Positions 4,630-21,834 of a stretch of DNA of 33,506 nt are shown here, in pieces (within the stretch, counting starts at the first letter, position 1; every line of letters begins with the position of its first letter). The notes under the pieces were generated by a model, which saw nothing but the letters and a program-made list of their open reading frames with translations, searched no databases and had not been told where the DNA came from. The stretch is from assembly GCA_028872955.1 (NCBI GenBank), contig JAGWNX010000041.1, positions 1 through 33,506 of the forward strand. The letters are read 5' to 3'. Origin of the DNA: Acidobacteriota bacterium. Its GTDB lineage: Bacteria > Acidobacteriota > Terriglobia > Terriglobales > Acidobacteriaceae. The translations under genes and the position numbers were made by a program.

Positions 4630-5873
4630 CGCGCCGATCTCTGGTGCTGGCCATGCTCGCGGCCGTCTCCGTACTTACCTTTCTCGACCGCATGGCGATT
4701 GCCATTGCAGAGCCAAGCGTGCGGCAGGATCTTCATCTCTCGCCGGTCGCGTGGGGCTGGGTGCTCTCCAGCTACATTCTGGCCAATGCGCTGTTTGAGT
4801 TGCCCTCGGGAGCGCTGGGCGACCGCTGGGGGCAGCGTCAGGAGCTGGCGCGCATCAGCATCTGGTGGTCCATCTTCACCGCGCTCACCGGCTGGTGCCG
4901 CAGCCTGGGCCAGTTAGTTGCCGCCAGATTCCTGTTTGGCCTTGGGGCAGCCGGGGCGTACCCGAACGCCTCGGGCGTGATTGCACGGTGGTTTCCACCC
5001 CAACAGCACGCGCGCGCGCAGGGTGTGGTGTGGGGTGCCAGCCGGCTGGGTGGAGCGCTGGCCCCTTTGCTGCTCATTCCGCTTTTTGGAAAGCTCGGCT
5101 GGCGATCCGCCTTCTGGCTGCTGGGAGCTGCCGGAGTGGTGTGGGGGCTGGTGTGGCTGGTCTGGTTCCGGAACCTGCCTTCGCAGATGCACGGCGTCTC
5201 CGCGCAGGAGCTTGCGGAGCTGGAGCCTACGCAGATGGAACCAGCGGCACCTGTTCCGTGGCGCCGCCTGGCGCGACACACGCAGTTGCAGCGCATCGCT
5301 TTGGCCTACTTCTGCTATGCGTGGGGCAGCTGGTTCTACTTTGGATGGTTCACCACATGGCTGGTGCAGGGGGCGGGGTTCAGTCGCTCGTCCCTGCGCA
5401 TTGTTGCTGCGTTGCCGTTCGTTTTGGGGCTGGCGAGCAACCTGGTCGGCGGGCAACTGGCGCAGCGGCTGGTGATGCGAGAGGGGCCGCGCACAGGGTA
5501 TCGACTGCTGTGCAGCGTGTGCCTGGCGGCCACCGCGCTCATGCTGTTCGGGCTGGCTGCCGTGCGTCAGTCATGGGCGGTAGTGGTGCTGGCGGCGCTT
5601 GGCCTGGGAGTGATGGACCTGATGCTGCCGGCGGCGTGGGCCATGTGCCTGCGCATCGGGGGGAGTTACGGTGGCGCGGCAACGGGTGTGATGAATACGT
5701 TTGGCAATCTGGGCGGATGGGTTGGTGCCATCGTCTTCGGCTATGTGGTCAAGCTCTCCGGCAGCTATCGCATTCCGTTGCTGGTGATCGCGGGCATGGT
5801 GCTGGCGGCGTCCCTGCTGTTCTGGCGGGTAGACTGTTCGCAGCCGATCGAAGCCGCACCACCGCAGCGTTAG
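4626..5873 (+). CDS. MFS transporter, anion:cation symporter type (sugar-acid uptake)
   Basis: About 415 residues with twelve likely membrane segments. FLDRMAIAIAEPSVRQDL after TM1 and GALGDRWGQR in the TM2-3 loop are hallmarks of the ACS branch of MFS, which imports hexuronates, galactonate, glucarate and similar organic acids. The start is a TTG overlapping the racemase stop as TTGA, with GGAG 8 nt upstream, so translation is coupled. This is the only importer in the catabolic part of the window. Given the neighbouring DUF1537 kinase and RuBisCO-like protein, the cargo is plausibly apionate or a related sugar acid; this is inference. Its stop codon overlaps the stop of the convergent kinase gene by 4 bases. 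Confidence 0.88.
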   Translation: MTRRSLVLAMLAAVSVLTFLDRMAIAIAEPSVRQDLHLSPVAWGWVLSSYILANALFELPSGALGDRWGQRQELARISIWWSIFTALTGWCRSLGQLVAARFLFGLGAAGAYPNASGVIARWFPPQQHARAQGVVWGASRLGGALAPLLLIPLFGKLGWRSAFWLLGAAGVVWGLVWLVWFRNLPSQMHGVSAQELAELEPTQMEPAAPVPWRRLARHTQLQRIALAYFCYAWGSWFYFGWFTTWLVQGAGFSRSSLRIVAALPFVLGLASNLVGGQLAQRLVMREGPRTGYRLLCSVCLAATALMLFGLAAVRQSWAVVVLAALGLGVMDLMLPAAWAMCLRIGGSYGGAATGVMNTFGNLGGWVGAIVFGYVVKLSGSYRIPLLVIAGMVLAASLLFWRVDCSQPIEAAPPQR

Positions 5874-7216: not shown

Positions 7217-8471
7217 CAAACGACTCCAGCGACACGCGCAACTCGCCGTGGCTCTCAGCGTACTTTGCCAGTGGAATCTGCAGCACGGCGGCCTCCCACG
7301 CTTGTTGCAGGCTACGCACGCCCGCCGCAGGCCCCGCAGGATGACCCAGAATGCCTCCGCCTGCGGCAAAGATCAGATCCGTTGACCCCAGTGCGGCAAA
7401 GGTCGCCGGGGCCTGGCGCGCGGTCTGGCCAGAGGAGAAGACCGGCACCACCTCACAGCCAGGGTGCGGCGGCGCAAACATCGGCGTCAGGCAGGCTCGC
7501 GCCGAGGCAATCACGGAGTCGTCCGGCTCGCAGAACTTGTTGCTCAGGCCGTTGACGTGGGTGTGGTCAATGCCGGCCAGGCGCCACAGCTTTTGAAACG
7601 CGACAAAGCTCATGCCCGGGGCTGGTGAACGCCCCAGCAATCCCCAGCCGTTGCGGTGGCCGTGGATGGCGACCTTGGCGTGCGCCCGCAGGACCTTCAT
7701 GGCAGGCAGTCCGATGGAGTTCATGCTCACCATCACGCAGGTGCCGCCGTGCTGCACCACCAGGTCGTGGCGAGCCAGCATCTCGTCCACCTCGCCGGTG
7801 ATGTTGGCTGCGTACATCACGCGCTTGCCGGTGCGGCGCGCGTGCTGCTCCAGCACCTGCAACACCGCCGGGGCCCGCTCGGCAAAGGGGCAGTGTGGGC
7901 CATCGGCCTGCAACTCATCGTCTTTGATGAAGTCCACGCCTGCCTCAGCCAGCATGCGCACCTGCGCTGCGGTCTCTGCGGCAGACATGCCGACGGAGGG
8001 CTTGAGGATGGTGCCGAGGATGGGACGATCGTAGACGCCTGTCAGAGAGCGCGTGCCCGCCACCCCGAACTGTGGCCCCTGGTAGCGATCCAGAAACGCC
8101 GCTGGCAGCGACAGATCCAGCAGTCGCAGGCCGGAGAGCGCCTTCAGCTCCCACAGGTTGCCGGCCACCGTTGCCAGCAGGTTGGGCAGCGACGTACCCA
8201 TGTTCTCCAGCGGCCAGGAGAGTTCGATCTCCGCGGCGCGGCGCTCGGCTTTGCCGTGGCGTGGCAGGCCAGAGCCGGGTAGCGATGCCTGTGCGACAGG
8301 GCCCAGGTCCTGCACGCGCTCCATTCGTGCAGCGTAGCGCTCGCGCAGGGCCTGGGTCTCGCCGGGTACCGCCACAAACGTACCGGTGGACTGCTCCCCG
8401 GCGATGGTTGCCGCTGCCTCTTCCACGGGGAAGGCGGTCTCCATCCAATAGCGAGCCACGATTCGTTCCAT
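7209..8471 (-). CDS. RuBisCO-like protein (form IV), probable 3-oxo-isoapionate-4-phosphate transcarboxylase/hydrolase (OiaX-like)
   Basis: 420 residues, homologous to the RuBisCO large subunit. Conserved features include the TILKP Lys (K157) and the metal/carbamylation motif DFIKDDE (K183, D185, E186). Also present are His in AIHGHRNGWG (H270), VFSSGQ (347-349 region) and GGGILGHPAG (371-380). The loop-6 segment is VNGLSNKFCE, unlike GKxEG of true RuBisCO, and no small subunit or phosphoribulokinase is nearby, so CO2 fixation is not indicated. With a DUF1537 kinase immediately downstream it matches the D-apionate pathway arrangement, in which the enzyme yields 3-phosphoglycerate and glycolate. 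Start: ATG 8471 preceded by GAGGAG; a TTG at 8489 overlapping the GH127 stop is an alternative. The exact substrate is inference. Confidence 0.85.
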   Translation of the reverse strand: MERIVARYWMETAFPVEEAAATIAGEQSTGTFVAVPGETQALRERYAARMERVQDLGPVAQASLPGSGLPRHGKAERRAAEIELSWPLENMGTSLPNLLATVAGNLWELKALSGLRLLDLSLPAAFLDRYQGPQFGVAGTRSLTGVYDRPILGTILKPSVGMSAAETAAQVRMLAEAGVDFIKDDELQADGPHCPFAERAPAVLQVLEQHARRTGKRVMYAANITGEVDEMLARHDLVVQHGGTCVMVSMNSIGLPAMKVLRAHAKVAIHGHRNGWGLLGRSPAPGMSFVAFQKLWRLAGIDHTHVNGLSNKFCEPDDSVIASARACLTPMFAPPHPGCEVVPVFSSGQTARQAPATFAALGSTDLIFAAGGGILGHPAGPAAGVRSLQQAWEAAVLQIPLAKYAESHGELRVSLESFGG

Positions 8472-8485
8472 CGTCTCCTCATCCC

Positions 8486-10252
8486 TCAACGAAGCGTGTG
8501 GTACACGCTGTAGGTTTGTTGCTGCACGGTATAGAACGGGACAAACAGCCTCCCTTGCTGCTGATACTGCGACGGGCCAACGCCGTGCAACGTGGACGTG
8601 CCCAGCAGTGGAGGCAGCTCTGGCGTTGTTGCGTTGAGCGAGGCGTACAGCACGCTGCCGCGCATCAGCGCAGCGGTCTCCGGATGCAGCTCGTCAATGC
8701 TCTCCGTGCGGAAGCTCTGCGGCAGCACCAGTCGCACGGAGTCGCCAGGCTTCCAGCGTCGCGCCAATCGGAGAAAGCGACCGGGCGCCGCCGGCTGTAC
8801 TGTGCCGTTGATGGCGACGCTGGCACCGCTGGCCCACGCTGGTATCCGCAGATGCAGCGCCCACGGTGTCGCAGGGGATTCGTCAATCCGGATAAGGATC
8901 TCGTCGCTGGCGGGATAGCTGGTCTCCTGCACCAGTCGCAGCCTGTTGACGCCTACCCTGGTGGTCAACACCGAGGGCGCGTACATCGAGACGTAGACTC
9001 CATCCGCAGCGGTAAAGTACAGATTCAGCACGTAGTCCGCAACCGTCTGCACCAGCGTGCCAGAGCAGCAAGGCCACTTGCTGGGGTAGTAGGTCTTGCG
9101 TGCGCGCGTGCCGTAGGTGGAGTAGTACGGATAGTCACCGTCGTCGTCAGGCATCCGTACCGCGAGAATCGTATTGTACACCACGCGTTCCAGATAGTCG
9201 GCGTAGCGGCTGTCGCCGGTCATGCGCAGCAGATAACGAGCCAGCTTGGTGGCGGCGTAGGCACCGCAGGGTGTCTCAAAGTGGTCGACCGTTGTGCTCA
9301 GACTTGCATACAGCTCACCGCGCCCGGGTGTAATGAAGGTCTCGTTCGGTCCCCAGCCGCCACTGGCATACTGTTGCTGCGTGGTCAGCAGGGTGAAGGC
9401 ATGCTGCAGGGCATCGCGGTAGCGCGCGTCCTGCAGTTCAAAGTAGGCTCGCCCGCCCGAACTGAGTGCGATGGCATGCGAGTGGGCGTGCTGTCCTGGG
9501 AACGGATCGTCGCCGCGTGCCAGCGGCTCAAAGAACTCACGCCGCAGCAGGTAACGCTGTGCCAGCTCGTACAGCGCTGCCTCGCCGGTCAGCGCGTGGG
9601 CCGCAAACAGCGTCTCCGGCATCACGTACGTCTCATCGTAGGGCGGCTCCTTCTTGCCGATGCGGTCGCGGCCCTGGCTGGGCAGCAAGGCGCGCGCCCC
9701 GGCAAAGGTCCGCAGCAGCGTCTCCTGTGCCTCGGTCACGCCCGCCAGTTGGACGGCATCCACCAGACCAGCCAGATGCTTATCCAGCGTGTAACACACC
9801 CATTGGTTCGACTCCGGTCGCAGGATCGACTGGTTCTGCGCGCCAAGGGTAGCGGTAAACCCGCGGACCAGCTCCTGCACCTTCTGCCGACAGGCCTGGT
9901 CGCCAGTGCTCGCACCCAGCCGGGCCAGGCCAGAGATGTATTGGCCCAGCGCATGACCGGGGACGAAGCCGTTGCGGTCGTACCAGCCGCCCATATCCAC
10001 ACCGGGAGCAGGTAGCCCGGCACGCTGCCGGTAGACCTTCAGCAGGCGATCGTTGTCGAGCGCCAGGTAGTGCGCCCGCACCGCCAGATACTGCTGCTGC
10101 AATGGGCCGCCCGTCAGGTGGGCCGCGCCGTAGCCCACCTCCTGCAATACCGCGCCAGCCGGTGCGGCGACTCCGCGCAGGGGACCGGCTGCGCACAGCA
10201 GCGAGCTGGCTGCGGCAGACTTGAGAAACGTGCGACGTGGGAACGTCTTCAA
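8486..10252 (-). CDS. GH127-type (DUF1680) beta-L-arabinofuranosidase-family hydrolase, Tat-exported
   Basis: 588 residues beginning with a twin-arginine signal (PRRTFLKSAA, hydrophobic region, AxA cleavage near residue 30). The (alpha/alpha)6 body contains WYDRNGFVPGHALGQYISG, the segment FETPCG, and KWPCCSGTL carrying the adjacent cysteines that include the family's nucleophile. In characterised GH127 the zinc-site residues are Glu-x-Cys plus the CC pair; here the first pair reads Glu-Thr-Pro-Cys, one residue longer. Members release beta-L-arabinofuranose; a Bacteroides member acts on aceric acid in rhamnogalacturonan II. First gene of an operon with the RuBisCO-like protein and kinase. The start is TTG with AAGG about 9 nt upstream. 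Family secure, specificity open. Confidence 0.88.
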   Translation of the reverse strand: MKTFPRRTFLKSAAASSLLCAAGPLRGVAAPAGAVLQEVGYGAAHLTGGPLQQQYLAVRAHYLALDNDRLLKVYRQRAGLPAPGVDMGGWYDRNGFVPGHALGQYISGLARLGASTGDQACRQKVQELVRGFTATLGAQNQSILRPESNQWVCYTLDKHLAGLVDAVQLAGVTEAQETLLRTFAGARALLPSQGRDRIGKKEPPYDETYVMPETLFAAHALTGEAALYELAQRYLLRREFFEPLARGDDPFPGQHAHSHAIALSSGGRAYFELQDARYRDALQHAFTLLTTQQQYASGGWGPNETFITPGRGELYASLSTTVDHFETPCGAYAATKLARYLLRMTGDSRYADYLERVVYNTILAVRMPDDDGDYPYYSTYGTRARKTYYPSKWPCCSGTLVQTVADYVLNLYFTAADGVYVSMYAPSVLTTRVGVNRLRLVQETSYPASDEILIRIDESPATPWALHLRIPAWASGASVAINGTVQPAAPGRFLRLARRWKPGDSVRLVLPQSFRTESIDELHPETAALMRGSVLYASLNATTPELPPLLGTSTLHGVGPSQYQQQGRLFVPFYTVQQQTYSVYHTLR

Positions 10253-10326: not shown

Positions 10327-10343
10327 ATTCCGCAAGGCGGAAC
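10327..10343. promoter_or_regulatory. candidate operator B upstream of the GH127/RuBisCO-like/kinase operon
   Basis: ATTCCGCAAGGCGGAAC contains a perfect 5-bp inverted repeat TTCCG / CGGAA around 5 bp. It lies about 74 bp upstream of the GH127 start, in the 90-bp gap after the regulator gene, and just touches the regulator stop codon. Same geometry as operators A, C and D. Confidence 0.58.
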
Positions 10344-11563
10344 TAGTTTGCGGCGGCACGTGGCCGGAGAGAGGGAAAACCGATTCGCGCACTCTGCTGC
10401 GCATCCAGCGGATAGATCAGGTCGACGTTGCGCGGCGTAATCAGCTGGTGCTTCACAAACACGGTGTTCGGCGTCGGCTTGTTCTGCAGCATCTGCATCG
10501 CGAGTGCGATGATCTCGTCGCCGTAGCGCTCGGGAAAGTAGGCCACCGTGCCCACCAGTCGAGTGTCAGGGCGGCGCAGCTCGGCGCGTGCGTCGGGAAT
10601 GGCGTTCTGTCCCATCACAGCGCAAAGATGCTTGCGGCCGATCTCGTCGAACGCTCGCAGGGCCGCCAGCGCGCACACGTCGTTCACTGCGCCCACCAGG
10701 GTGCGCCGGGCGGGCGCGCGACGCAGATACTGGCGGAGCACCTCAAGCACCTGTTCCATGTTGCCGCGTCCGTTCAGATGTGCCACCGGGACGGAGTTAA
10801 TCTGCGGCAGCTCGGCGCGCAGCCCGTCCACCAGTCCAGTCAGGCGCAGCTCCAGCAGCGAGCCGGCGATGGGCAGCTCCAGCAACAGCAACTGGTCCAC
10901 TTTACCGTCCCAGTTCTCCCGTGCCCAGCGGCCCAGGGCTTTGCCGCCAATCAGGCCGGCCTTGTAGTTATTTGCGCCAAAGTAGGTCGCGCCCGGATGT
11001 GGCACTTCGATGGCGACCACCGGGGTCTGCGCCTCCAGAAACTTCGCGGCCAGCACGGGTGCCACGCGTTCGTAGGTCTGGAACTCCAACACCAGGTCAA
11101 CCTTCTCGCGGATCAGCAGGTCAGCGTTGCGCACGGCCTCGCGCGCGCTGTAGCGATTGTTGAGCGTAATGAGATGGATGTGTTCGCGCGCAGCGGCGGC
11201 CTCCAGGCTCTGCTTCACCTGACGACAGAACTCGGAGTCACCCTGAGCAGCAAAGCCGATGCGGAAAGCTCGTGCTCCGATCGGCGTGAAGCGATTGCGA
11301 TAGAGCCCTGCGCCGGCACGCTCCAGCAACCCGCCATGAATGAGCGTGCGCAGCAGCCGGAACGCGGTCGTCTTCGGCAGTCCGGTGCGGGCCATCACCT
11401 CGGTCAGCTGCAGCTCTTCGCCAGTGGCGCGAAACGCCTTGAGCACCTCGCACGCACGCAGCACCGTCAGGGACTCGTTGCGATCTCCACGACGCTCGGC
11501 AGCAGGGGGAGGCACCGGGGTAGAGTTCGAGGGAGAAATTGTTTTTATTTTTCGAGTTGCCAT
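10343..11563 (-). CDS. hybrid transcription regulator: IclR-type winged helix fused to periplasmic-binding-protein-like sensor
   Basis: 406 residues. After a basic, low-complexity N-terminus, residues about 30-95 form an IclR-type winged helix (LRACEVLKAF, then TEVMARTGLPKTTAFRLLRTL, then GLLERAGAGLYRN). The IclR effector (GAF-like) domain that should follow is absent. Residues about 110-395 resemble a ribose/LacI-type sugar-binding protein (Peripla_BP_4 style): FCRQVKQSLEAAA, VDLVLEF, YFGANNYKAGLIGGKALG, VGAVNDVCALAALRAF and VGTVAYFPERYGDEIIALA. It therefore probably senses a sugar or sugar acid in the cytoplasm. It lies between the two operons it most likely controls and has a perfect palindrome just ahead of its own start, suggesting autoregulation. 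The ATG start has no strong ribosome-binding site. Activator or repressor is not decided by the sequence. Confidence 0.82.
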   Translation of the reverse strand: MATRKIKTISPSNSTPVPPPAAERRGDRNESLTVLRACEVLKAFRATGEELQLTEVMARTGLPKTTAFRLLRTLIHGGLLERAGAGLYRNRFTPIGARAFRIGFAAQGDSEFCRQVKQSLEAAAAREHIHLITLNNRYSAREAVRNADLLIREKVDLVLEFQTYERVAPVLAAKFLEAQTPVVAIEVPHPGATYFGANNYKAGLIGGKALGRWARENWDGKVDQLLLLELPIAGSLLELRLTGLVDGLRAELPQINSVPVAHLNGRGNMEQVLEVLRQYLRRAPARRTLVGAVNDVCALAALRAFDEIGRKHLCAVMGQNAIPDARAELRRPDTRLVGTVAYFPERYGDEIIALAMQMLQNKPTPNTVFVKHQLITPRNVDLIYPLDAQQSARIGFPSLRPRAAAN

Positions 11564-11629: not shown

Positions 11630-12865
11630 TCAGCCGGGCCGGGCCTGCAGCGCGGCTTGGGCCTCTGCAAGTAACGTCGGCACGGGGCGCGTTGTGGCGA
11701 TGGTGGCAGTCATCATGCGGTCCAGGATGGCTGCGATCTGTGGCCAGTCCTGCCGCGCAGGAATCTCGCGTGCGGTGCGATGCAGCGTCTCTAACTGATT
11801 GCAGAACGGGAGGCTGCGCAGCACCTCGGGGTGCTGCCAGGTGGCGCGGCGGCAGCCAATCCCGCCATGCTGCGTGGTCAGCAGGTCCATGGGCGGGCTG
11901 GCGCAGTGACGCAGAAAGCTCCAGGCGAGCCGGCGATGCGGCGAACCCGCGGCCAGAGACAGAATCCAATAGACGTTGAGGGAAGCGCTGGTGCCGCCTT
12001 CGCCGTGCGGAATGGGAGCAACCGAGACGTGGCCGCGCGCGCGGGAGTGGTCTGCGGTGTGGGCCAGCGCAGCAAAGCCAAACCAGTTGACGGCCATGGC
12101 TGCCTCGCCGGCAGCAAAGGCCAGCCCCGCCTGCACGGAGTCGAACGCAGCGCTCTGCGGGTGAACCGCCAGGACGTCTGTGGCGAGGGCGCGGTAGTAG
12201 CGCAGCGCCTCCAGCGCAGCTGGCTGCTGCAGGCGGAGCCGATCTGGCGCCAACTCGATCTCGCCTCCGCGCGTCCACAGGTGCAGCAGAAAGTCGTAGA
12301 CCAGGTTGTGTCCGTCAGGGAAGCCCGCCAGGACCGCGCCCGCCATGCCCGGCCTGCGCCCGTGCAGAAAGCGCGCGGTGCGATGAAACTCGTCCCACGT
12401 CTGCGGCGGACGCAGCGGCGCGCCATACCGCTGGGCGTGCTCCTGCTGCAGCGCCGCATCTTTCATGACGTCGGTACGATACAGCAGGCACTCCGGTCCG
12501 TCGTGGTAGGGCAGGCCCAGCACTGCCTTGCCATGGCGCTGCAGGCGCAGCAGCGACTCTGGCCAGGCCTCCGGATACTCCTCCGGCGCATCGACTGCCA
12601 GCATTGGTGCCAGGTCCACAACCGCATCGCTGGCGGCGACGGCGGGTATCCAGTCGGTCGGCAGAAAAGCAACGTCCCATGCGCCGTTGCGAAGTCCTTG
12701 CTGCCCGAGCAGTGCGTCTTCCAGTTCGGGCAGGTCCATCGCCACCGCCTCCAGCCGCAGGCCGGTTCGGGCGGTTGCCTCCCAGTGCTGCCACTGCTCG
12801 GCCACAGCAGACTCAAAGGCGTCAAAGCGACGCACGGCGATGCGAAAGCGATCGCTGCGTGGCAT
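11630..12865 (-). CDS. solute-binding-protein family 1 homologue without signal peptide (second SBP of cassette)
   Basis: 411 residues with the fold signature of extracellular solute-binding proteins of carbohydrate ABC transporters. WDVAFLPTDWIPAVAASDAVVDLAPML and GLPYHDGPECLLYRTDVM are typical N-lobe segments. PPQTWDEFHRTARFL, MAVNWFGFAALAH and VYWILSLAAGSPHRRLAWSFLRHC follow. There is no signal peptide, lipobox or Tat motif: the start [14 protein letters not shown] runs straight into the first beta strand. It should therefore stay in the cytoplasm. Its ATG overlaps the CoA-transferase stop as TAATG, and no ABC permease or ATPase is present in the window. Sensor, ligand carrier or partner of the CoA-transferase are possible roles; none is shown. 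Confidence 0.78.
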   Translation of the reverse strand: MPRSDRFRIAVRRFDAFESAVAEQWQHWEATARTGLRLEAVAMDLPELEDALLGQQGLRNGAWDVAFLPTDWIPAVAASDAVVDLAPMLAVDAPEEYPEAWPESLLRLQRHGKAVLGLPYHDGPECLLYRTDVMKDAALQQEHAQRYGAPLRPPQTWDEFHRTARFLHGRRPGMAGAVLAGFPDGHNLVYDFLLHLWTRGGEIELAPDRLRLQQPAALEALRYYRALATDVLAVHPQSAAFDSVQAGLAFAAGEAAMAVNWFGFAALAHTADHSRARGHVSVAPIPHGEGGTSASLNVYWILSLAAGSPHRRLAWSFLRHCASPPMDLLTTQHGGIGCRRATWQHPEVLRSLPFCNQLETLHRTAREIPARQDWPQIAAILDRMMTATIATTRPVPTLLAEAQAALQARPG

Positions 12866-14016
12866 TACTTCCGGTCCTCGGCAAGTTCGTTCAGGATCGT
12901 CGCGTTGTCCTCGCCGATCTTCGGTGCGCCGCGCGGACTGGTTAGCTTTTCGCCGTCGATGCGAATCGGGCAGCGCGTCGTGCGTAGTACGGCCTCAGGC
13001 CGGTGGCCCACCGTCTGCACCATATCCAGCGACTGAAAGCCCGCATGGGCGAAGAGTCGATCCCAGGTCAGCACATCCGCGCACCAGATGTCTGCGGGCT
13101 CCAGAATGCCCAGCCAGTGGGCTGTCGTGTGGGTGCGCAGGTGGCCAACCAAGATCTGCTTGATGGTGTCGCGTTGCTCAAACAGCGAGGCGGGGTCAGA
13201 GAAGGCGAGCAGGGCGGGGCAAGCCAGCAACTCGCCCAGTCGCACCACAGGCTGCATGGCCAGCGCCAGGTAGCCATCTGCCGTGGCGTAGATGCCGTAA
13301 GGCGCGCCCAGGTAGGCATGTGCGTTGTTCACGGCGCTGCGCACGGGGGGCTGCCCGCCGTCGTTCAGATACGTGGTGAGCACCTCAAACTGCAGATCCA
13401 GCGTGGACTCCAACAGGCTGACCTCGACGTAGCCGCCGCGGCCGGTCACGCCTCGCCGCACCAGGCAGGCCAGAATACCTTGCACCAGATGCGCTCCGGC
13501 CATCATGTCTGAGACGGCCAGCCCAAACGGAACCGGTGGCTGCTGCTGATCGCCGTTGAGCCACGGCAGGCCCGAGAGAGATTGCACCAGCAGATCCTGG
13601 CCGGGTTTGCCACGCCAGGGGCCCTGCTTGCCATAGCCAGTGATCTCGCCATAGACCAGGCGCGGATTGAGTGCGGCCACATCGTCATAGCCCAGGCCCG
13701 CCTTCTCCATCACGCCGGGCCTGAAGTTCTGAATCATCACATCGGCACGTCGCAACAGGGTCAGGACGTGTTCGCGATCCGCTGGGTTCTTCAGGTCTGC
13801 CGCAAAGCTCTGCTTGTTGCGGTTGATGGAGTGAAACAGGGTGGAGTCGCCATCCAGAACAAGATTGGAGATGTACAACTGGCGGCACAGGTCGCCAGTG
13901 CCCGGCCGCTCAATCTTGATGACGCGAGCCCCCATATCTGCCAGCCGCAGCGAAGCCGATGGCCCAGAGAGAAATTGACTGAAGTCGATGACCAGAAGGC
14001 CTTCCAGTGGTCTCAT
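12865..14016 (-). CDS. class III (CaiB/BaiF, formyl-CoA-transferase family) CoA-transferase
   Basis: 383 residues starting at ATG 14016, which overlaps the upstream SBP stop as ATGA; the open frame extends further upstream but only inside that gene. Family features: [36 protein letters not shown], and [18 protein letters not shown]. They continue with [21 protein letters not shown] and [15 protein letters not shown], and the catalytic Asp is D170 in LAVSDMMAG. Class III enzymes move CoA between carboxylic acids through an aspartyl-CoA anhydride. Here the donor and acceptor are unknown. It is sandwiched between two leaderless SBP-like genes and opposite a MaoC hydratase, which suggests activation and hydration/dehydration of a carboxylic acid, perhaps from the sugar-acid pathway nearby (inference). 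Confidence 0.9.
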
Positions 14017-15173
14017 GCCCGGTGTCCCTTCTGCGCGGTCGTCAAAGCCTTCTCCATGCCTGCCAGCACATCCTGGGGCGCGCCGCCCTCGCTCAGGTAC
14101 TGGTGGATCAGGGTCGAGGCAGCATCCTGCCAGGCCAGGTAGCCGGGCCAGCGTGGTCGCACCCAGGCGGCATCCAGCGTAGGCAGCGTTTGCTGGAAGA
14201 AGTTGCGCGTTACCCGGTTGGCCTCGGCGTCGGTCCACGCGGCACGGTGGCCGGGCTGTCCGCCACTGGCCATGTAAAGCGTGCGCTGGCACAGCGCGCT
14301 GGCCACGTAGGCCGCATAGCTGGCGGCGAGCTCCGGATGACGGCACTGCGCAGAGATCGCCAGCCCGGCACCGCCCAGCGTCGATCGCAGCGGCGTGCCA
14401 TCGTCCAGCGTAATCAAACCGCCCGCCTGCAGCGGATGCGCGGCGTAGCCGTCACGAGAGTAGTTGGAGTAGCCGTACGCGAAGGGGCAGTAGGCCACCG
14501 TCTCCGACTCTGCCAGCAGCTGCCACGTGCGAATGGGATTGCGCTGCAGGGTGCCCGGCGCGGCACGCTGCAGCAGTTCGCGCACCATGCGCAGCGCCTC
14601 TACCGCGGCAGCGGTGTGCTCTGCGGCCACCACTGCTGCCAGCGAAGCAAACGGCCTGGCACCCAGCGCGTTGGCGAACATCAGAAACGCCATCAGGCTA
14701 TCGATGGCGAGGCCGGGCACAGCTACCGCTCCGCGCTCGGCCAGCTGCAACAGATCAGACCACGTACGTGGCAGCGCGTAGCCATAGCGCTGCATCAGGT
14801 CTGGCCGCCAGCCCGCAACCGGAGTAGCGGCGTCGATGGCGAGCGCCCACTGGCATCCGTTGTACTGGTAGCTGGCATAGGAGCCGCCGACAGAGTTCTG
14901 CCGCTGCTCGGCAAGAAATCCCGCAGGCATCAGGTCGTCAAGCGGCAGCAGCAAGCCCTGTGTCGCCGCCTCGCCGATGGAGGGATGATCAATCACCATC
15001 AGGTCAAAGCGCGCGGCAAGCTCTGCCAGCGGAGCATCGGCAAAGGCCTGGAGCGAGCGCTTCTCCCAGCGCACGCTCACCTCGGCGTGCGTCTCTTCCC
15101 AGCGCTGCGCGGTGGCCAGCATGGGCAACAGGCCGCGGGTATGGTTCCAGGTGATGCCTTTCAGCTCAATCAT
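14013..15173 (-). CDS. solute-binding-protein family 1 homologue without signal peptide (first SBP of cassette)
   Basis: 386 residues from ATG 15173 (a TTG two codons earlier is an alternative; neither has a clear ribosome-binding site). It begins [18 protein letters not shown], with no export signal. [59 protein letters not shown], and [23 protein letters not shown] are typical carbohydrate-SBP segments. It is the promoter-proximal gene of the cassette and is coupled by ATGA to the CoA-transferase. It is only distantly similar to the second SBP, so the two are not a recent duplication. A cytoplasmic ligand-binding role is the simplest reading. No transporter partner is visible. Confidence 0.78.
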
Positions 15174-15298: not shown

Positions 15299-15748
15299 AT
15301 GACGCAGGAACAGTACTTTGAAGACTTCACGCCCGGCACCGTGCGCACCACGACCGGGCGGACAATAACCGAGGCGGACATTGTGCTGCATGCCGGGCAA
15401 ACCGGCGACTTCTATCCGCACCACATGGATGCGGAGTGGTGTCGAACGCAGCCGTTTCAGCAGCGCATCGCGCATGGCACGTTGATCTTTTCCGTCGGGG
15501 TGGGGCTGACCGCCGGCGTGCTGAATCCGCTGGCCATGAGCTACGGCTACGATCGCCTGCGCTTCGTGCGCCCGGTCTTTATCGGCGATACGATCCGCAC
15601 CCGTGTGACCATCCGCGAGGTGCGCGACGATGCACGGCGTCCGGCCTCTGGCATCGTGGTGGAGGCGCTGGAGGTCCTCAACCAGAAGGACGAGGTTGTG
15701 CTGGTGTGCGATCACCTCTTGCTGGTGCAGCGGCGAGCTGCTTCGTAG
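15299..15748 (+). CDS. MaoC-family (R)-specific enoyl-CoA hydratase/dehydratase
   Basis: 149 residues, the length of a single hot-dog hydratase. The catalytic Asp-x4-His is D37...H42 in [26 protein letters not shown] and [23 protein letters not shown] complete the family pattern. The ATG has GGAG 9 nt upstream. It is divergent from the SBP-CoA-transferase-SBP operon with only about 125 bp between them and one shared candidate operator. It is therefore likely co-expressed and probably acts on the CoA ester made by the CoA-transferase. The substrate is unknown. Cytoplasmic. Confidence 0.88.
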
Positions 15749-15787
15749 CTGCGGCTGTCGTAGTTGCGCTGTTGTAGCTGCTACGGC
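15745..15787. repeat. three imperfect 14-15-bp tandem units at a convergent gene junction
   Basis: GTAGCTGCGGCTGTC, GTAGTTGCGCTGTT and GTAGCTGCTACGGC run head to tail across the maoC stop and into the last codons of the convergent GH78 gene. GAGCTGC (15735-15741) and GCAGCTC (15786-15792) flank them as an inverted pair. The block could fold as a weak bidirectional terminator; there is no T-run. Confidence 0.35.
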
Positions 15788-18306
15788 AGCTCGCGCATGG
15801 TGTAGCTTCCGGGCGTGGTCAGCGTAAACGTAGCATCCGTCGCCGCTCCGCGCGCACAGCCGGTACACGGCGCGGTGCCTTGCAGCAGCTGCACCTGGCT
15901 GGCAGGATGGAGGCGGTGATAGAGCAGCGTTGCCGTCTGCACTCCGCCTGGCACCACCACGCGCAACTCGCCTGGTTGACGGAGCGATACCTCGATCAGC
16001 CCTTGCGGCGTGGGCACGGTGCCCTCCACAAAACTCAGGTCCTGCAACCGGGGCGCGATGCGGGCACTGGTATAGCCGGGCGCGGTTGGGGTCACGCCCA
16101 GCAGGTGCTCCATCATCCATGAGGTTGGCCCGGCCGACCAGCCATGCGCCATGGAGACGAAGTAACCGCTCGTGCCGTCGGCCTGCAGCGACAGGTGCGG
16201 GTTCGACTTCGGCCAGCGCCGATCGTAGTTCTCCCACAGGCTGGTGGCCCCTTCGTCCAGCATGGCTCCCCAGTAGCTGCGGATCCAGCGCAACGCTGCC
16301 TCGTCGTGACCCAGGGCAGACATGGCCTGCAACAGGTAGGCTCCAAAGTAGGGTGTAATCGCGGGGTCCTCAGGCGTCTCCTGCTGCACGTGCGACAGCA
16401 CCTGGTCCCACAGCACGGCGCGATGTGCTGTGTCGGTGGCCGAGGTGTCCTGCAGCGCCAGGGTGGCCAGCGCGTTCATCTGCCAGCCAGTGCCATAGGT
16501 CATGCCGGGGCCTTGCATGGCGAGTGCCGCAGAGGTGACGCGCTGTGCGATGCTGGCGTAGCGCGCGGCGTTGGCCTCGTCTCCCATGGCGCGCAGCAGC
16601 CGCACTGCTGCCTGGTAGCCACGCACGAATTGCAACTGTGTGCCCACGCGCGCCGGCTCGGTGCTGGCGTAGAGTTCCGGAGCCCAATCCACAAACAGCC
16701 ACTGGTGGCGCGGGTTGGTGAACGTGCCCGTCGCGTCCAGTCCGGAGTCCATGGCTGCCAGCACGCGCAGCAGCGCGTCGTGCTGGGCACGCAGCATGGC
16801 CAGGTCGCCACTCCGCTGGTAAAGCCCTTCGACCGAGGTGATCCACAGGGCAGAGTAGCCGGGGATACCGTTCACATCCTCCACCTTGGCCGGTACCAGA
16901 TGACGCAGCGTGTCCTCGATCAGCCGCGCATCGCCGAAGACCTCCGAGATGACCGGGCCGGCAACATCCAGATCGCCCACCCAGCGGCCGCGGTCGCGTT
17001 TGGGTGCATCCCAGATGTCGTCCTGCATGCAGAGATGCGCAGTGTATGCGCCGGTCTCCCAGATGCGATCGAGCTGCGCGTCGGAGGAGTGGAAGCTGCC
17101 GCGATAGGTGACCGGGTAGTAGATGCCCTCCAGCCGCAGGGCAGAGAAGTGCAGTGTGGCGCAGCCGCGTAGAAAGCGCACCCGGGCGTAGCGAAAGGCA
17201 GACTTGGGGCCGCGCGCCTCGCCGTGTGGCGGCACCAGCAGGAGGTTGGTGCCCAGATAGTTGCCACCCTGCTGGCCGCTGCTCAGCCCGGTGCTCATGG
17301 CCTCAATCTCTGACTCGCCATAGGCCACGGAGAGTGTGGACGGACAGTCTGCGGCAGACTGAACGTACAAGCGGCCCGCCACCTCGCGGCCAAAGTCCAG
17401 CAGCAGCGCCGGGGCGTCCGCATCCATCGGCTCTGCGAGGCCGCGAATGCGCAGGTCCGCGGCATCGGGTCGGGTAAGCGACTCGGCATTTTCAATGGCA
17501 GCGGTGCCCGGGTAGAGATTGGTCACCGCTGCAGGCGGCAGCGCGTAGGTTCGCAGCCAGGGAGACATGCCCCGGTAGCCAGGCCAGGCGTACATGCCAG
17601 CGTCAGCGTTCCACTGGAAGAAGTCGATGTTGCTCTCCACGGGGCCAAGGCTCTGCACTGCGGGCCAGGTGCTGTCGTCGAATCCGGGCTGTTCCCAGTC
17701 CTTGGCAGCGGCCGTGGTGCTGCGCCAGCTTGCGTCGGAGTAAAGCAGCGGTGGCGCGTCCTGGGCCGGGGCTGCGGGGACGAGCTTGACCGCAAGCACC
17801 TCGCCGTAGGTCAGCTGAAGGGTTGCGTCGGAGCCCGCAGCCGCGACAATGCCGTGGCCGCGAACGGCCTGAATGGCGAGCGTGTTTTCGCCGCGCCGTA
17901 GCGCAGCAGAGACCTCCACATGGAAGACGCGAAACCCGATGGGCGCGTTGATGTCACTGTGGAACTCGGCAACGGCCTTGCCGTTCAGATAGATGGTTGC
18001 CTGGCGCGGCCCGGCAACGTAGAGCGTAGCGGCAGCCGGCACCTGAGCCAGCACAAAGCGTTTGCGGAAGTAGTGCGGTGCGACACGCAGGTCAGGCCGG
18101 TTCCAAGAGTAGTGGCTGCGATTGGGCAGCAGCGCTGTGACGTCGCCCTTGGTCCACAGGTACTCCTCTGGCAGCTGTGCGCGCTGGTCGTCGCCTGCAG
18201 CGGCGCTCAGGCCGCGTGTGGGGTCCAGCCAGCGCGTCGCGGTGGTCTGGGCTGTGAGAGGCAAGGCGAACAGCAGCAGGGCAAGTGCGGAGCGAAGGCG
18301 TGTCAT
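15781..18306 (-). CDS. GH78-family alpha-L-rhamnosidase-like protein, secreted, with altered general-acid motif
   Basis: 841 residues. The ATG at 18306 is chosen because it starts a clean signal peptide (MTRLRSALALLLFALPLTAQ); the upstream extension of the frame is basic and unlike a leader. N-terminal beta-sandwich domains (WYFRKRF-like strands, LYVAGPRQATIYLNGK, GENTLAIQAVRGHG) precede the (alpha/alpha)6 barrel and a C-terminal beta domain. The general-acid motif reads DAPKRDRGRW (bases about 16975-17010) where the other GH78 here has DCPHREKLGW, so Asp replaces the usual Glu. The general-base side SLWENYDRRWP keeps its Glu. The protein belongs to the family, but its activity may differ from simple rhamnosidase. 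It sits alone, convergent with maoC. Confidence 0.85.
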   Translation of the reverse strand: MTRLRSALALLLFALPLTAQTTATRWLDPTRGLSAAAGDDQRAQLPEEYLWTKGDVTALLPNRSHYSWNRPDLRVAPHYFRKRFVLAQVPAAATLYVAGPRQATIYLNGKAVAEFHSDINAPIGFRVFHVEVSAALRRGENTLAIQAVRGHGIVAAAGSDATLQLTYGEVLAVKLVPAAPAQDAPPLLYSDASWRSTTAAAKDWEQPGFDDSTWPAVQSLGPVESNIDFFQWNADAGMYAWPGYRGMSPWLRTYALPPAAVTNLYPGTAAIENAESLTRPDAADLRIRGLAEPMDADAPALLLDFGREVAGRLYVQSAADCPSTLSVAYGESEIEAMSTGLSSGQQGGNYLGTNLLLVPPHGEARGPKSAFRYARVRFLRGCATLHFSALRLEGIYYPVTYRGSFHSSDAQLDRIWETGAYTAHLCMQDDIWDAPKRDRGRWVGDLDVAGPVISEVFGDARLIEDTLRHLVPAKVEDVNGIPGYSALWITSVEGLYQRSGDLAMLRAQHDALLRVLAAMDSGLDATGTFTNPRHQWLFVDWAPELYASTEPARVGTQLQFVRGYQAAVRLLRAMGDEANAARYASIAQRVTSAALAMQGPGMTYGTGWQMNALATLALQDTSATDTAHRAVLWDQVLSHVQQETPEDPAITPYFGAYLLQAMSALGHDEAALRWIRSYWGAMLDEGATSLWENYDRRWPKSNPHLSLQADGTSGYFVSMAHGWSAGPTSWMMEHLLGVTPTAPGYTSARIAPRLQDLSFVEGTVPTPQGLIEVSLRQPGELRVVVPGGVQTATLLYHRLHPASQVQLLQGTAPCTGCARGAATDATFTLTTPGSYTMRELP

Positions 18307-18430
18307 AGCGTGGGGAATCCGAGCCGGAACGGCACTGCCCACTATAGCGCAGCGCATGCCTCGGCTGGCCGCCTGTCGCCAGGGGTGCCGCGCCTCGGAA
18401 TGGTGGCCGCCATCGTCTGCTGCGGTATGG

Positions 18431-19324
18431 CTACGGCGCGGCTGTTGCCAGCGCGGGCAGCTCTTCCACATCGACGCCGACCTTGAGCGCCTGCACGCCG
18501 CCGCCCAGAATCAGGCCACGCAGCGGACTCACGTCGCTGAAGTCTCTGCCCCAGGAGACGGTGATGTGGTCGGTCCCGGGGACCACGTTGTTCGTCGGAT
18601 CCAAATCGAGCCAACCCTCGCCCGGGCAGTAGACCGAGATCCAGGCATGGGAGGCGTCGGCTCCTACCAGCCGCTCCTGGCCGGGCGGCGGAGTGGTGCG
18701 CAGATATCCGCTCACGTAGCGGGCCGCGAGTCCCAGCGAGCGCAGCATCGCGATCTGCATCTGCGCAAAGTCCTGGCAGACGCCGCGTCGCCGCGCAAAG
18801 ACCTCGTCCACCGTGGTGCTTACACTGGTCGCATTGGGCTGAAAGCGAAATTCGCGGTGGAGGCGATCCGTCAGCTCCAGCAGCCCTTCGCGCAGCGGTC
18901 TGGCCGGGGTCAGCGACTGACGGGCGTAGCCTGCAAACTCCGAACGCAGGCGGATGCGTGGCGATTCAAAGCGAAACTGGTAGGCATCCAGTCCGCTGGT
19001 GCTGTGGTCCTGCGGCAGCAGGGCGGCCGCCTCCTCCCAGCGTACGGAGCTTCCATACGTCGGCGTTGTGGCCAGCACCTCCACCTCACTCTGTGCCTCC
19101 ACAACCAGGTCGCGGTGGGGCTCCTGGATGGAGAACAGGTGCAGTGTATTGCCGTAGTAGTCTTCGCGTTCAATCACCTCTCCGGGCACTGGGGAAAGGT
19201 TCAGAGTGAACGACTCCAGCCGCTGCGTGGCCAGGGCGCGCGGCCGCAGGCAGGCCAGGTGATTGCCTACCGACACCGGATAGTTGTACCGGTACGCCGT
19301 TCGATGAGTGACCTTGTATCTCAT
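18431..19324 (-). CDS. transglutaminase-like protease-fold protein (short form)
   Basis: 297 residues. The bacterial transglutaminase-like N-terminal domain (MRYKVTHRTAYRYNYPVS, residues 1-85) is followed by a core with a complete catalytic triad. This is C183 in RRGVCQDFAQ, H226 in ASHAWISVY and D242 in WLDLDPTNN. No signal peptide, so cytoplasmic. It is the last gene of a three-gene operon and its ATG overlaps the ATP-grasp/alpha-E stop as ATGA. In such operons the transglutaminase-fold proteins are thought to act as peptidases or amide-bond processing enzymes on the product of the ATP-grasp partner; the product is not known. Confidence 0.9.
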   Translation of the reverse strand: MRYKVTHRTAYRYNYPVSVGNHLACLRPRALATQRLESFTLNLSPVPGEVIEREDYYGNTLHLFSIQEPHRDLVVEAQSEVEVLATTPTYGSSVRWEEAAALLPQDHSTSGLDAYQFRFESPRIRLRSEFAGYARQSLTPARPLREGLLELTDRLHREFRFQPNATSVSTTVDEVFARRRGVCQDFAQMQIAMLRSLGLAARYVSGYLRTTPPPGQERLVGADASHAWISVYCPGEGWLDLDPTNNVVPGTDHITVSWGRDFSDVSPLRGLILGGGVQALKVGVDVEELPALATAAP

Positions 19325-21834
19325 TGTCCGATGTTGATCGCCAGCGTTCTTGCGTGGTTGAAGTAGCGGCTCGAGAGGTTATCGGACCATGTGAGCAGGA
19401 GCTCTTCCGTCTCATCCAGGAGCCGCCGCAGGCGCAGGATGCCACTGCTGCTGCGCGCCGTCTGCAGTGCGTCCGGCAGCGGGTAGGACACCTTGCGCAT
19501 GTCAAAGCTGCGCAGCCGCTCCAGCGCGTGCTGCATCGCCTGCAGATCCTCCGGCAGGTGGCGCGGCAGCTTGCGATAGTGGTGGACGATGTGGGCCAGC
19601 TGAAAGTCCAGCGATCGCGGGTTGGACTGATCTGCCATCAGCATGTCCATCACCGGCAGCGGTTGCAGGGTGGTAAAGTACCGCGAGCGATAGGTCACGG
19701 AGCTGTCGGCCACCTCCAGCAACAGCTCCAGCAGGGGCCAGTCCTTCTCGGCAAAGGGGCGCGCCAGCTCGCGCAGCAGGCGCGTGTTGAAGAGCGCACG
19801 TTCTACCCGGCGGCCCAGGCTCAGAAAGATCCAATCCTGACCGCGCACAATGTTCTCGCGCTCCATGCCGGAGAAGCCGGAGAGCAGCTCCATGCAGTTG
19901 GAGAGGATCGGCGGGTAGGCCATCAGGGTCTCCTCCGGCGTAGTCGGCAAGACGTCTCGCAGCTTGCCCAGCAGATGCGTCATGTCCGTGGAGAGCCGGT
20001 CGCGGACCTTGCCCCCGGTCTGGTGAATCTGACCAAGCGTGAAGGGCAGACTGTCCGCGCGGGAGCCATCGGTCAGTACGGAGAGCAACTCCTGCTCAAA
20101 GCGCTGGGGCAGGGTCAGGGCCTTGCGGCTCTTGGGCAGCTTGCCGCCTTCGATGCCGAGCGTCTGGAACAAGGCCAGCAGGCAGTCCAGCTCATCTCGG
20201 CCTGCCCGCGGCACGCGCCACACCACGGTGCGCAACACCCGCGTGGTGTCCTCGGCACGTTCGACGTACCGGCCCAGCCAGTACAGGTTGTGCGCCACAC
20301 TGCTGGGGATGCAGGGTTTGTCGTGCCGCAGCTCGATCTGCTTGTTCTTGGGACGCAGCATGGTGAAGGTGTCGACCGGGCTGTCCGAGAGTACCCACAC
20401 GTCCTTGCTGTGGCCGCCGCGCTGCATGGAGACGACGGAGTTATCCTTGCTGGCCACGCGTGCCAGGCCGCCGGGCATGACGGTCCAGCCATTGCCGGTG
20501 TTCACGGCGTAGACCCGCAGCACCAGGCTGCGAGACGCGATGCTGCCGTGCTCCCACACGGGCCCGCGTGAAAGGGCCACCTGCTCCTGCGCCACGTAGT
20601 CGTACGGGGCGGCGCGCAGTCTGGCGGCAAACCGCTCGCGCTCCTCCGGGCTCAGGTCGCTGCCAAAGACCGGCTCCATGGCGCGCGAGGGGAAGGCCGG
20701 CTTGACGACCAGAGACTCAAGGTTCTGCAGCACCCACTCCAGCGCGTAGGGCTGGCCGCACCACCAGGTGGCGACGGAGGGCAGCTTCAGGCTCTCGCCG
20801 CGCAGCAGCTGGCAAAGCCCGGGTAGAAACGGCATGATGGCGGCAGACTCGATGACGCCGCTGCCCAGCGCATTTGCTACGCGCACATTGCCTGCCACAA
20901 TGGCATCCACCAGCCCGGGCACGCCCAGCAGAGAGTCTCCGCGCAGCTCCAGCGGATCGCAGAAGCTGTCATCGACGCGCCGCAGAATGACATCGACCCG
21001 CTCCAGCCCTTCGACGGTCTTCAGGAACACGGTGCGATCCCGCACGGTCAGGTCGGCCCCTTCTACCAGCGTAAAGCCGAGGTAGCGCGCAATGTAGGAG
21101 TGTTCAAAGTACGTCTCGTTATGCGGGCCCGGCGTCAGCAGTACGATGCGCGGGCTGTGCGTGCCCGCCAGCGACAGCAGCGCCTCGCGCTGCGCCCGGA
21201 AGAAGGGTGCCAGCCGCATCACGTTCGAGTCGCGGAACAGGTCCGGCATCACGTTGGAGACGATGGTGCGGTTCTCCAGCGCATAGCCGCTGCCTGAGGG
21301 GGCCTGGGTGCGGTCGGAGAGTACCCACCACTGCCCGTCCGGCGACCGCGCCAGATCGACGCCGATCATATGTAAATAGCTCTGCGTGGGGACTGGCACG
21401 CCCACCAGCGAACGGAGAAATGCCGGGTTGGCGAAGAGCAGCTCCGCCGGCAGATTGCCGCTGGCCAGCAACGTCTGGCGGCCATACATATCCGCCACAA
21501 TCTGGCTTAGCAACTGGGCCCGCTGCACAATTCCAGCTTCGATGCTCTGCCACTCGCCCGCAGGCAGCAGCAGCGGAATCATGTCGATCTTCCACGGGCG
21601 ATTGACTCCCTGCGGGTCGCCGTAGATGTTGTAGGTGATGCCGTTCTCGCGAATGCGACGCTCGGCCCTGGCCCAGCGCTGGCCCAGCTCCTCCGGCCCC
21701 AGCTCGTCCATCGCCTCCATCAGGGCGGCCCAGTGCGGGCGGCATGCGCCCTCAGCAGACGACATCTCGTCGTAGGCGTCCTGCTCCTCCAGCGGAGGGT
21801 GGTAGAGTTCGACCGTCATGCTGCGTTCACTCAT
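19321..21834 (-). CDS. circularly permuted ATP-grasp / alpha-E fusion protein
   Basis: 837 residues. Residues 1 to about 490 are the circularly permuted ATP-grasp type (DUF404/DUF407). Segments include GITYNIYGD, RPWKIDMIPLLL, LTPGPHNETYFEHSYIARYLGF, LRRVDDSFCDPLELR, KPAFPSRAMEPVFG and VMPGGLARVAS. Residues about 510-830 form the helical alpha-E domain (DUF403), beginning IPSSVAHNLYWLGRYVERAEDTTR. The two halves are separate genes in many bacteria; here they are fused. ATP-grasp members ligate carboxylates to amines using ATP; for this group the substrate is unknown and amide or peptide synthesis has been proposed from gene neighbourhoods. It is coupled by ATGA overlaps to transglutaminase genes on both sides, so all three proteins are likely made in step. 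Confidence 0.93.
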   Translation of the reverse strand: MSERSMTVELYHPPLEEQDAYDEMSSAEGACRPHWAALMEAMDELGPEELGQRWARAERRIRENGITYNIYGDPQGVNRPWKIDMIPLLLPAGEWQSIEAGIVQRAQLLSQIVADMYGRQTLLASGNLPAELLFANPAFLRSLVGVPVPTQSYLHMIGVDLARSPDGQWWVLSDRTQAPSGSGYALENRTIVSNVMPDLFRDSNVMRLAPFFRAQREALLSLAGTHSPRIVLLTPGPHNETYFEHSYIARYLGFTLVEGADLTVRDRTVFLKTVEGLERVDVILRRVDDSFCDPLELRGDSLLGVPGLVDAIVAGNVRVANALGSGVIESAAIMPFLPGLCQLLRGESLKLPSVATWWCGQPYALEWVLQNLESLVVKPAFPSRAMEPVFGSDLSPEERERFAARLRAAPYDYVAQEQVALSRGPVWEHGSIASRSLVLRVYAVNTGNGWTVMPGGLARVASKDNSVVSMQRGGHSKDVWVLSDSPVDTFTMLRPKNKQIELRHDKPCIPSSVAHNLYWLGRYVERAEDTTRVLRTVVWRVPRAGRDELDCLLALFQTLGIEGGKLPKSRKALTLPQRFEQELLSVLTDGSRADSLPFTLGQIHQTGGKVRDRLSTDMTHLLGKLRDVLPTTPEETLMAYPPILSNCMELLSGFSGMERENIVRGQDWIFLSLGRRVERALFNTRLLRELARPFAEKDWPLLELLLEVADSSVTYRSRYFTTLQPLPVMDMLMADQSNPRSLDFQLAHIVHHYRKLPRHLPEDLQAMQHALERLRSFDMRKVSYPLPDALQTARSSSGILRLRRLLDETEELLLTWSDNLSSRYFNHARTLAINIGQ

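Follow-up and report, generated by a model that had tools for sequence, protein, structure and literature searches.

Why should a gene for a coenzyme A (CoA) transferase be wedged between two genes for leaderless solute-binding proteins (SBPs), and overlap both of them? The question is raised by a 33,506-nucleotide stretch of contig JAGWNX010000041.1 from an Acidobacteriota bacterium, the whole of which is called the window here. The three genes, named SBP1, CaiB and SBP2 below, are as follows.

15173-14013, minus strand: SBP1, 386 residues, a leaderless SBP_bac_1 protein with its methionine start at 15173 and the N-terminal motif ITWNHTRG
14016-12865, minus strand: CaiB, 383 residues, a class III CoA-transferase (CoA_transf_3)
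12865-11630, minus strand: SBP2, 411 residues, a second leaderless SBP_bac_1 protein

From gene content and sequence comparison, we lean towards the view that these genes form the core of a cytosolic, CoA-dependent module that breaks down a rare deoxy-sugar released from the most complex of the pectins, rhamnogalacturonan-II (RG-II). Conserved across phyla, the module consists of SBP1, CaiB, SBP2 or a lactonase, a MaoC-type protein, usually a Gfo/Idh dehydrogenase, a permease for deoxy-sugars and a regulator of the IclR type; most Bacteroidota have it in RG-II loci, beside an aceric-acid hydrolase and a 2-O-methyl-fucosidase of glycoside hydrolase (GH) family 139. The sugar-catching fold of the binding proteins thus seems to have been put to use within a pathway inside the cell.

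The arrangement of an SBP, a CoA-transferase and another SBP with overlaps of 4 and 1 bases, first described in a sequence-only reading of the window, is borne out by the coordinates and the Pfam matches. SBP1 and CaiB share ATGA (14016-14013), and CaiB and SBP2 share one base in TAATG (at 12865). SBP1 and SBP2 score 53.9 and 97.2 bits against SBP_bac_1 (cut-off 26), and CaiB matches CoA_transf_3 over its full length with 328.8 bits. The two SBPs show no significant similarity to each other in BLASTP (E 0.24) and therefore represent two families. Over much of their length they have a sequence profile in common with the binding proteins of CUT1-type sugar ABC importers, for example the trehalose/maltose-binding protein 1eu8 and SmoF (7nbz). 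They differ from these in that they have no leader, the window contig has no ABC permease, their genes are co-operonic with catabolic enzymes, and they are the sole SBP_bac_1 members in four Bacteroidota genomes. CaiB shares its full-length Pfam match and a conserved Asp with the class III CoA-transferases (CaiB/BaiF; succinate-glutarate, formyl-CoA and mesaconate transferases). The Asp, which we take to be the catalytic residue, is conserved in 14 of 14 aligned copies, both paralogues included. However, CaiB lies far below the cut-off of every NCBIfam model that it matched (the best at 206 against 750 bits), with no named equivalog, and two copies of it are present in 51 of the 80 related loci described below.

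The absence of leaders, another claim of the sequence-only reading, holds when alternative starts are considered. Past the upstream stop, the first ATG, GTG or TTG is the TTG at 15179 for SBP1, adding 2 residues, and the ATG at 12865 itself for SBP2; no leader is possible in either case. The N-termini were also surveyed in the top 120 proteins by score from each search, the window's own included (of 5344 SBP1 and 1756 SBP2 matches), where an 11-residue mean hydropathy of at least 2.0 in the first 40 residues was counted as a hydrophobic stretch; this is a simple measure and not a signal-peptide predictor. It was found that 239 of the 240 proteins lack such a stretch (1/120 positive for SBP1, 0/120 for SBP2), and no lipobox was flagged in the two sets. 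The single positive, P0060, apparently has an over-extended start ahead of the conserved MIELTGITWNH. When the first 60 residues are taken as a control, scores of 2.47-2.97 are obtained for three ordinary ABC-type SBPs of related loci, compared with at most 1.82 in the 76 alignment rows of both families.

The claim that the window contains no ABC permease or ATPase gene stands for the 18 open reading frames scanned with Pfam, and none of the 8 ABC permease domains (BPD_transp_1, PF00528) of the genome lies on the contig; for ATPases the claim stands only in part, the other open reading frames of the window not having been scanned for them. The same genome has 4 matches to PF01547 (SBP_bac_1), two of which are SBP1 and SBP2, and three other genomes have 3, 6 and 6. 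In the Bacteroidota genomes behind loci L017, L018, L032 and L041, SBP1 and SBP2 are the only PF01547 matches in all four, which speaks against ABC import. An ordinary SBP with a hydrophobic N-terminus of its own lies some kb from the module in L049, L060 and L078, and L078 also has a MalK-type ABC ATPase near the module; the ABC permeases of the relatives were not searched systematically. We rejected ABC import by SBP1 and SBP2 as unlikely in view of the missing hydrophobic N-termini, the missing ABC permease on the contig and the four genomes without any other member of the family. The two proteins are very probably intracellular.

The relatives of the locus were collected with an SBP1 alignment run against a single genome of each species; 267 relatives were confirmed, and the best 80 loci were kept. 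Genes were counted anywhere in a stretch of up to 10 kb on each side (shorter for some loci), and some queries were drawn from the same loci. The 80 loci are not independent, about 50 of them being Bacteroidota. In 76 of the 80 loci CaiB follows SBP1 on its strand at no more than 400 bp; 68 loci have SBP2, 73 a MaoC protein of one or the other type, 69 a Gfo/Idh dehydrogenase, 55 a FucP/RhaT-type permease (FucP 49, RhaT 6) and 39 an ordinary IclR-type regulator. The module is spread over Acidobacteriota, Chloroflexota, Bacteroidota, Paenibacillus, Planctomycetes and Burkholderiales; the members having it are Acidobacteria, Bryobacterales, Chloroflexi, Pedobacter, Hymenobacter, Paenibacillus, Rhodopirellula, Opitutae and Burkholderiales. 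Within the phylum of the window, SBP1 is patchy (3/297 genomes at E <= 1e-30, the window's included). In seven copies (L110-L116) the order SBP1-CaiB-CaiB-SBP2-Gfo/Idh-MaoC-FucP is intact away from both the aceric-acid hydrolase and GH139, and it therefore looks like a self-contained catabolic operon. CaiB is missing beside SBP1 in the stretches examined of L013, L026 and L042. In genome G614 the SBP1 copy has an in-frame TAA, possibly from a decaying module or a sequencing error.

The neighbourhood proposed from the window is thus conserved and non-random, although the unit is not the mere sandwich of a transferase between two SBPs that had been claimed: it also takes in MaoC, usually Gfo/Idh, often a sugar permease and a regulator of the IclR type, with a lactonase added in some lineages. 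Likewise, the idea of binding proteins recruited to the cytoplasm beside a CoA enzyme is supported by the leaderless family and the conserved linkage, within a wider gene set than claimed. In the window, the MaoC gene diverges from the three genes.

15299-15748, plus strand: MaoC-type hydratase/dehydratase, 149 residues, MaoC_dehydratas 77.1 bits, with the motif GDFYPHH

The GDxxPHH motif is kept in all 5 first-type MaoC proteins looked at; a GDxxPxH motif is presumably the mark of the (R)-hydratase hot-dog domain. A second MaoC type occurs in L010 (12398-12847) and eight other loci of the 80, where it accompanies or replaces the first type in some lineages. The searched GDxxPHH pattern was absent from 4 of the 4 second-type proteins looked at, and the second type is possibly a heteromeric partner.

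The gene set can be arranged into a candidate pathway. Glycosidases would free the sugar outside the cell, the FucP/RhaT-type permease would import it, and the Gfo/Idh enzyme would oxidise C1 to give a lactone. The lactone would be opened by SBP2, or by the lactonase in other lineages, and CaiB would load the resulting sugar acid onto CoA. MaoC would then dehydrate the CoA ester or, following rehydration, take methanol out of it, while SBP1 would handle an intermediate. One of the closest known systems is the oxidative L-fucose pathway, consisting of a dehydrogenase, a fuconolactonase and a fuconate dehydratase. The module likewise has a Gfo/Idh enzyme, a fuconolactonase-like amidohydrolase and fucose/rhamnose permeases. 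It differs in having a CoA-transferase and MaoC in place of an enolase-type dehydratase, together with two proteins of the SBP fold. In the open-access literature, among the titles and abstract beginnings listed, we found no report of this SBP-CaiB-SBP arrangement and nothing that joins 2-O-methyl-fucose and CoA-transferase; no paper listed there joins aceric acid with a CoA transferase or treats aceric-acid catabolism. For the fate of the odd sugars released from RG-II, the module supplies a named candidate gene set, available in the culturable Pedobacter and Hymenobacter.

The link to RG-II comes from the genes around the module. The typical order in Bacteroidota is IclR - GH78 - beta-L-arabinofuranosidase-like protein - GH2 (- LacZ) - SBP1 - CaiB - CaiB - SBP2 - Gfo/Idh - MaoC - FucP - SusC. 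The beta-L-arabinofuranosidase-like protein matches the first (N-terminal) quarter of the NCBIfam model 'beta-D-glucuronidase/beta-L-arabinofuranosidase' with 523 bits, and it matches PDB 5mt2/5mui (molecule name 'Beta-galactosidase') with E 1e-119, which we take to be the GH137 domain of the RG-II enzyme BT0996. Beyond SusC there is an aceric-acid hydrolase that exceeds its curated cut-off. Among 27 Bacteroidota genomes, 25 have it, by coordinates, 10.6-13.7 kb from the midpoint of the locus, and in a separate set three of four genomes have it within the same locus. Further along in Pedobacter nyackensis come OiaX, OiaK, a racemase, an SBF-type symporter, a SASA esterase and a DUF5703 protein. 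The DUF5703 protein of Pedobacter locus L097 matches PDB 9hyq with E 1e-294 (982 bits) and 9hmb with 314 bits. In the part of the source available, 9HYQ and 9HMB are structures of two GH139 enzymes, the RG-II 2-O-methyl-fucosidase BT0984 and a homologue from a soil Verrucomicrobium, and that part does not state which accession belongs to which enzyme (PMC12282258). The much closer match suggests that 9hyq is the Bacteroides enzyme.

Outside the Bacteroidota, GH139 and GH95 lie beside the module in the Chloroflexota loci L012 and L022, and GH95 in L025. The GH139 of L012 is 49.5% identical to that of Pedobacter and matches 9hyq with E 5e-223. No match to the aceric-acid hydrolase was found beside the module in L012 or L022; the L022 genome has one above the cut-off on another contig. 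Of seven sampled contigs with matches of the GH127 type in other phyla, two are the module's own (L061 and L078, confirmed by sequence, with matches about 18 and 33 kb from SBP1 and below the cut-off), and the other five differ in length from the module contigs.

What would the two SBPs do in the cytosol? A clue comes from the amidohydrolase found near SBP1 in some lineages, which is 'L-fucono-1,5-lactonase'-like (104 bits, cut-off 400). By profile, this lactonase is present in L013, L026 and L065 (Acidobacteriota), in L049, L061 and L078 (Burkholderiales) and in L117 and L118 (order of Pedobacter). All eight of these loci are without SBP2 in the stretch examined, the contig of L026 being only 4.4 kb long; the proteins of L049 and L078 that match SBP2 with 124-128 bits are SBPs of the ordinary ABC type. 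Out of 95 SBP1 stretches, 77 have SBP2 only, 8 the lactonase only, 1 both and 9 neither. The sole locus with both is L014, where the lactonase (173 bits) is about 8 kb away. Among the nine with neither, L042, L060 and L119 are long and the rest are short or cut. The lactonase loci fall into three groups on the SBP1 tree, for which 3 changes are needed. An exchange of SBP2 and lactonase in about three lineages is thus suggestive, the pattern on the SBP1 tree not being significant and the pair test on the tree being without power.

Since SBP2 and the lactonase replace each other, SBP2 may itself be an enzyme, and the simplest reading of the exchange is that it may perform the lactonase step. We put the catalytic activity of SBP2 somewhat short of an even chance. 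The sequence-only reading had offered substrate delivery to the transferase, sequestration of a reactive intermediate or a two-protein sensor as possible roles; the lactonase exchange speaks rather for catalysis by SBP2. Enzymes on binding-protein folds are represented by cyclohexadienyl dehydratase, MqnA/MqnD and THI5, which would be the precedent for such a change. To our knowledge, these come from other binding-protein families, and a CUT1-type sugar SBP working in a CoA-dependent sugar pathway is not among them. Candidate catalytic residues peculiar to SBP2 (D71, H121, D184/H186/N187 and R199) were considered and dropped; D71 and H121 also occur in some ordinary SBPs.

A slightly less probable alternative is that SBP1 and SBP2 are cytosolic, non-enzymatic binding proteins that buffer, shuttle or sense a sugar acid or CoA ester for CaiB. 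The SBP_bac_1 profile is kept over most of their length, they match sugar-binding proteins of solved structure, and their genes overlap CaiB in the window, all of which would suit binding. On the other hand, SBP2 and the lactonase are mutually exclusive around SBP1 bar one case, which a shared reaction explains more easily, and a binder for a metabolite at cytosolic concentration would be without obvious use. In 3 of 4 alignments SBP1 has Ala at the positions of an Asp and a Trp that presumably bind the sugar in the sugar SBPs of solved structure. In its boldest form, the enzymatic reading holds that CUT1-type SBPs have become cytosolic enzymes, with SBP2 a sugar lactonase (replaced by the amidohydrolase in three lineages) and SBP1 a second catalyst on sugar-acid (CoA) intermediates, together with CaiB and MaoC forming an undescribed CoA-dependent pathway that would demethylate and degrade the 2-O-methyl-L-fucose of RG-II; as a whole, we consider this combination rather unlikely. 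If the SBPs are enzymes, a new role is added to a very common fold, and many annotations as 'multiple sugar transport system substrate-binding protein' are wrong.

Which sugar is degraded was approached through co-occurrence in 300 genomes of the order of Pedobacter, with counts uncorrected for shared ancestry. Here an aceric-acid hydrolase counts as absent below E 1e-250, and for GH139, 11 of 130 genomes were dropped for weaker or broken matches (including a G393 copy with stops). SBP1 is found in 104 genomes, GH139 in 119, the aceric-acid hydrolase in 107 and NF049878 ('AlphGalctur') in 117. The 104 SBP1 genomes contain GH139 in 101 cases, NF049878 in 101 and the aceric-acid hydrolase in 94. 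Within 30 kb of SBP1, both hydrolases are linked in 71 genomes, GH139 alone in 8 (the aceric-acid hydrolase being absent in 6 and elsewhere in 2) and the aceric-acid hydrolase alone in 1. Neither is linked in 24 genomes (both elsewhere 20, only GH139 elsewhere 1, both absent 3), where 'elsewhere' takes in other contigs, some of which are assembly breaks.

We consider a pathway for some RG-II sugar likely. For the particular sugar, 2-O-methyl-L-fucose is favoured, at not quite an even chance, with aceric acid second. It is favoured because CoA activation would acidify the C2 proton, while sugar-acid dehydratases of the usual kind depend on a free 2-OH, and because the product would join the known 2-keto-3-deoxy-fuconate route.

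Several observations weigh against this assignment. NF049878, presumably the alpha-galacturonidase acting on a different RG-II side chain, coincides with SBP1 just as often as GH139 does, so that at the level of whole genomes the signal is for RG-II degradation and not for one sugar. GH139 occurs without SBP1 in 18 genomes, 20 of the 104 SBP1 genomes have both hydrolases but not within 30 kb (other contigs included), and 3 have neither. Neither CaiB nor MaoC is near the SBP1 relatives of L004, L042 and L119. Neither the window nor its kin L005-L011 has an adjacent Gfo/Idh match. GH139 and GH95 were not found by tblastn on the syntenic Granulicella contig (58,600 of 58,653 bases, L122-L124), whose only GH127-type match is the orthologue of the window's GH127, and the 20-kb flanks of L008 (L125, L126) and the stretches of the L080 contig (L127-L129) gave no tblastn match to any query. 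The hydrolases of the window are GH78, GH42 and a GH127-type enzyme below the aceric-acid-hydrolase cut-off, with no GH139 seen; without this and an adjacent Gfo/Idh, the substrate in the window is less sure. In addition, the part of the GH139 report available states that the soil Verrucomicrobium homologue released no 2-O-methyl-fucose (PMC12282258).

For the SBP1 relatives without CaiB and MaoC, a general role of the family in sugar-acid metabolism would fit their neighbours. These are a xylose-isomerase-like enzyme, an SDR and a Gfo/Idh-like gene (the last assigned by eye) in L004, a stretch of 4.1 kb; an enolase-superfamily dehydratase and an SDR in L042 (8748-11961); and a UxuA-like dehydratase and an SDR in L119 (9292-12245).

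For aceric acid (3-C-carboxy-5-deoxy-L-xylose), which is the acidic sugar in side chain B of RG-II, the module would be of the same kind, with Gfo/Idh oxidising C1, CaiB activating a carboxylate and MaoC dehydrating. Its hydrolase is the nearest RG-II-specific hydrolase to the Bacteroidota module, in the same locus in the 25/27 and 3/4 genomes above, and it is carried by most SBP1 genomes (94/104). By the residue order of the aceric-acid side chain, the adjacent beta-L-arabinofuranosidase-like, GH78 and GH2/LacZ enzymes fit the stripping of residues outside aceric acid, and the window has a GH127 enzyme and no GH139 was seen. The linkage split counts against it: six SBP1 genomes without the aceric-acid hydrolase keep GH139 linked and two more link only GH139, whereas the reverse is seen once. 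Moreover, GH139 and GH95 stand beside the module in L012 and L022 with no match to the aceric-acid hydrolase, and the permeases are of the fucose/rhamnose type. Aceric acid as the sole substrate was our early favourite and was demoted after the recognition of GH139 and this 8-to-1 split; we now regard aceric acid as an improbable, though still the second, choice.

It is very unlikely that the block serves an unrelated cofactor or regulatory task and is only carried along in pectin loci, as the equally tight co-occurrence with NF049878 and GH139 might suggest, because the dehydrogenase, hydratase, CoA-transferase and sugar permease stay together far from both hydrolases (L110-L116). Export of the SBPs by an unrecognised route to serve an ABC importer encoded elsewhere is most improbable: Pfam does place both in an importer family, the genome has its 8 permease domains and two further SBP_bac_1 matches elsewhere, and the module of L078 has an ABC ATPase and an ordinary SBP in its vicinity, yet this is opposed by the N-terminus survey, the four Bacteroidota genomes, the module's own FucP/RhaT permease in 55/80 loci and the hydrophobic N-termini that ordinary SBPs of related loci do carry.

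The remaining assigned neighbours in the window are the following.

1665-3761, minus strand: GH42 beta-galactosidase, synteny conserved with Granulicella
3952-4629, plus strand: Asp/Glu racemase family protein, adjoining OiaX/OiaK in some relatives too
4626-5873, plus strand: MFS permease, best match the D-galactonate transporter subfamily (208 bits, cut-off 395)
5870-7369, minus strand: OiaK-like sugar-acid kinase (439.4 bits, cut-off 700)
7209-8489, minus strand: RuBisCO-like protein of the OiaX kind (453.1 bits, cut-off 700)
8486-10252, minus strand: GH127-type glycosidase of the beta-L-arabinofuranosidase family (aceric-acid-hydrolase model 101 bits, cut-off 950)
10343-11563, minus strand: regulator, an IclR-type helix-turn-helix fused to a sugar-binding Peripla_BP_4 domain
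15781-18471, minus strand: GH78-type alpha-L-rhamnosidase, in synteny with Granulicella locus L005

An identity of the GH127-type enzyme as an aceric-acid hydrolase is not supported, given its 101 bits against a cut-off of 950 and 5opj as its best solved relative. The fusion regulator has a close match in 1 of the 80 loci (L005). At 18431-25211 there is a cluster of a transglutaminase, a circularly permuted ATP-grasp/Alpha-E protein and a DUF2126 amidoligase, with no link to the module seen. Homologues of OiaX and OiaK of the D-apionate pathway are adjacent in the window, L005, L032, L038 and L097, the OiaX homologues of the four relatives lying near the module; however, the four homologues scored reach 405-509 bits against cut-offs of 700, so the equivalog score is not reached. 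OiaX/OiaK as an obligatory part of the core was rejected, with OiaX in 19 of 50 genomes having the module. The OiaX-kind protein, the OiaK-kind kinase and the Asp/Glu-racemase protein travel together across phyla (window 3952-8489, L097:2318-5639, L032:17567-20896 and L038:2250-5667), and they are perhaps a separate branch for another RG-II sugar.

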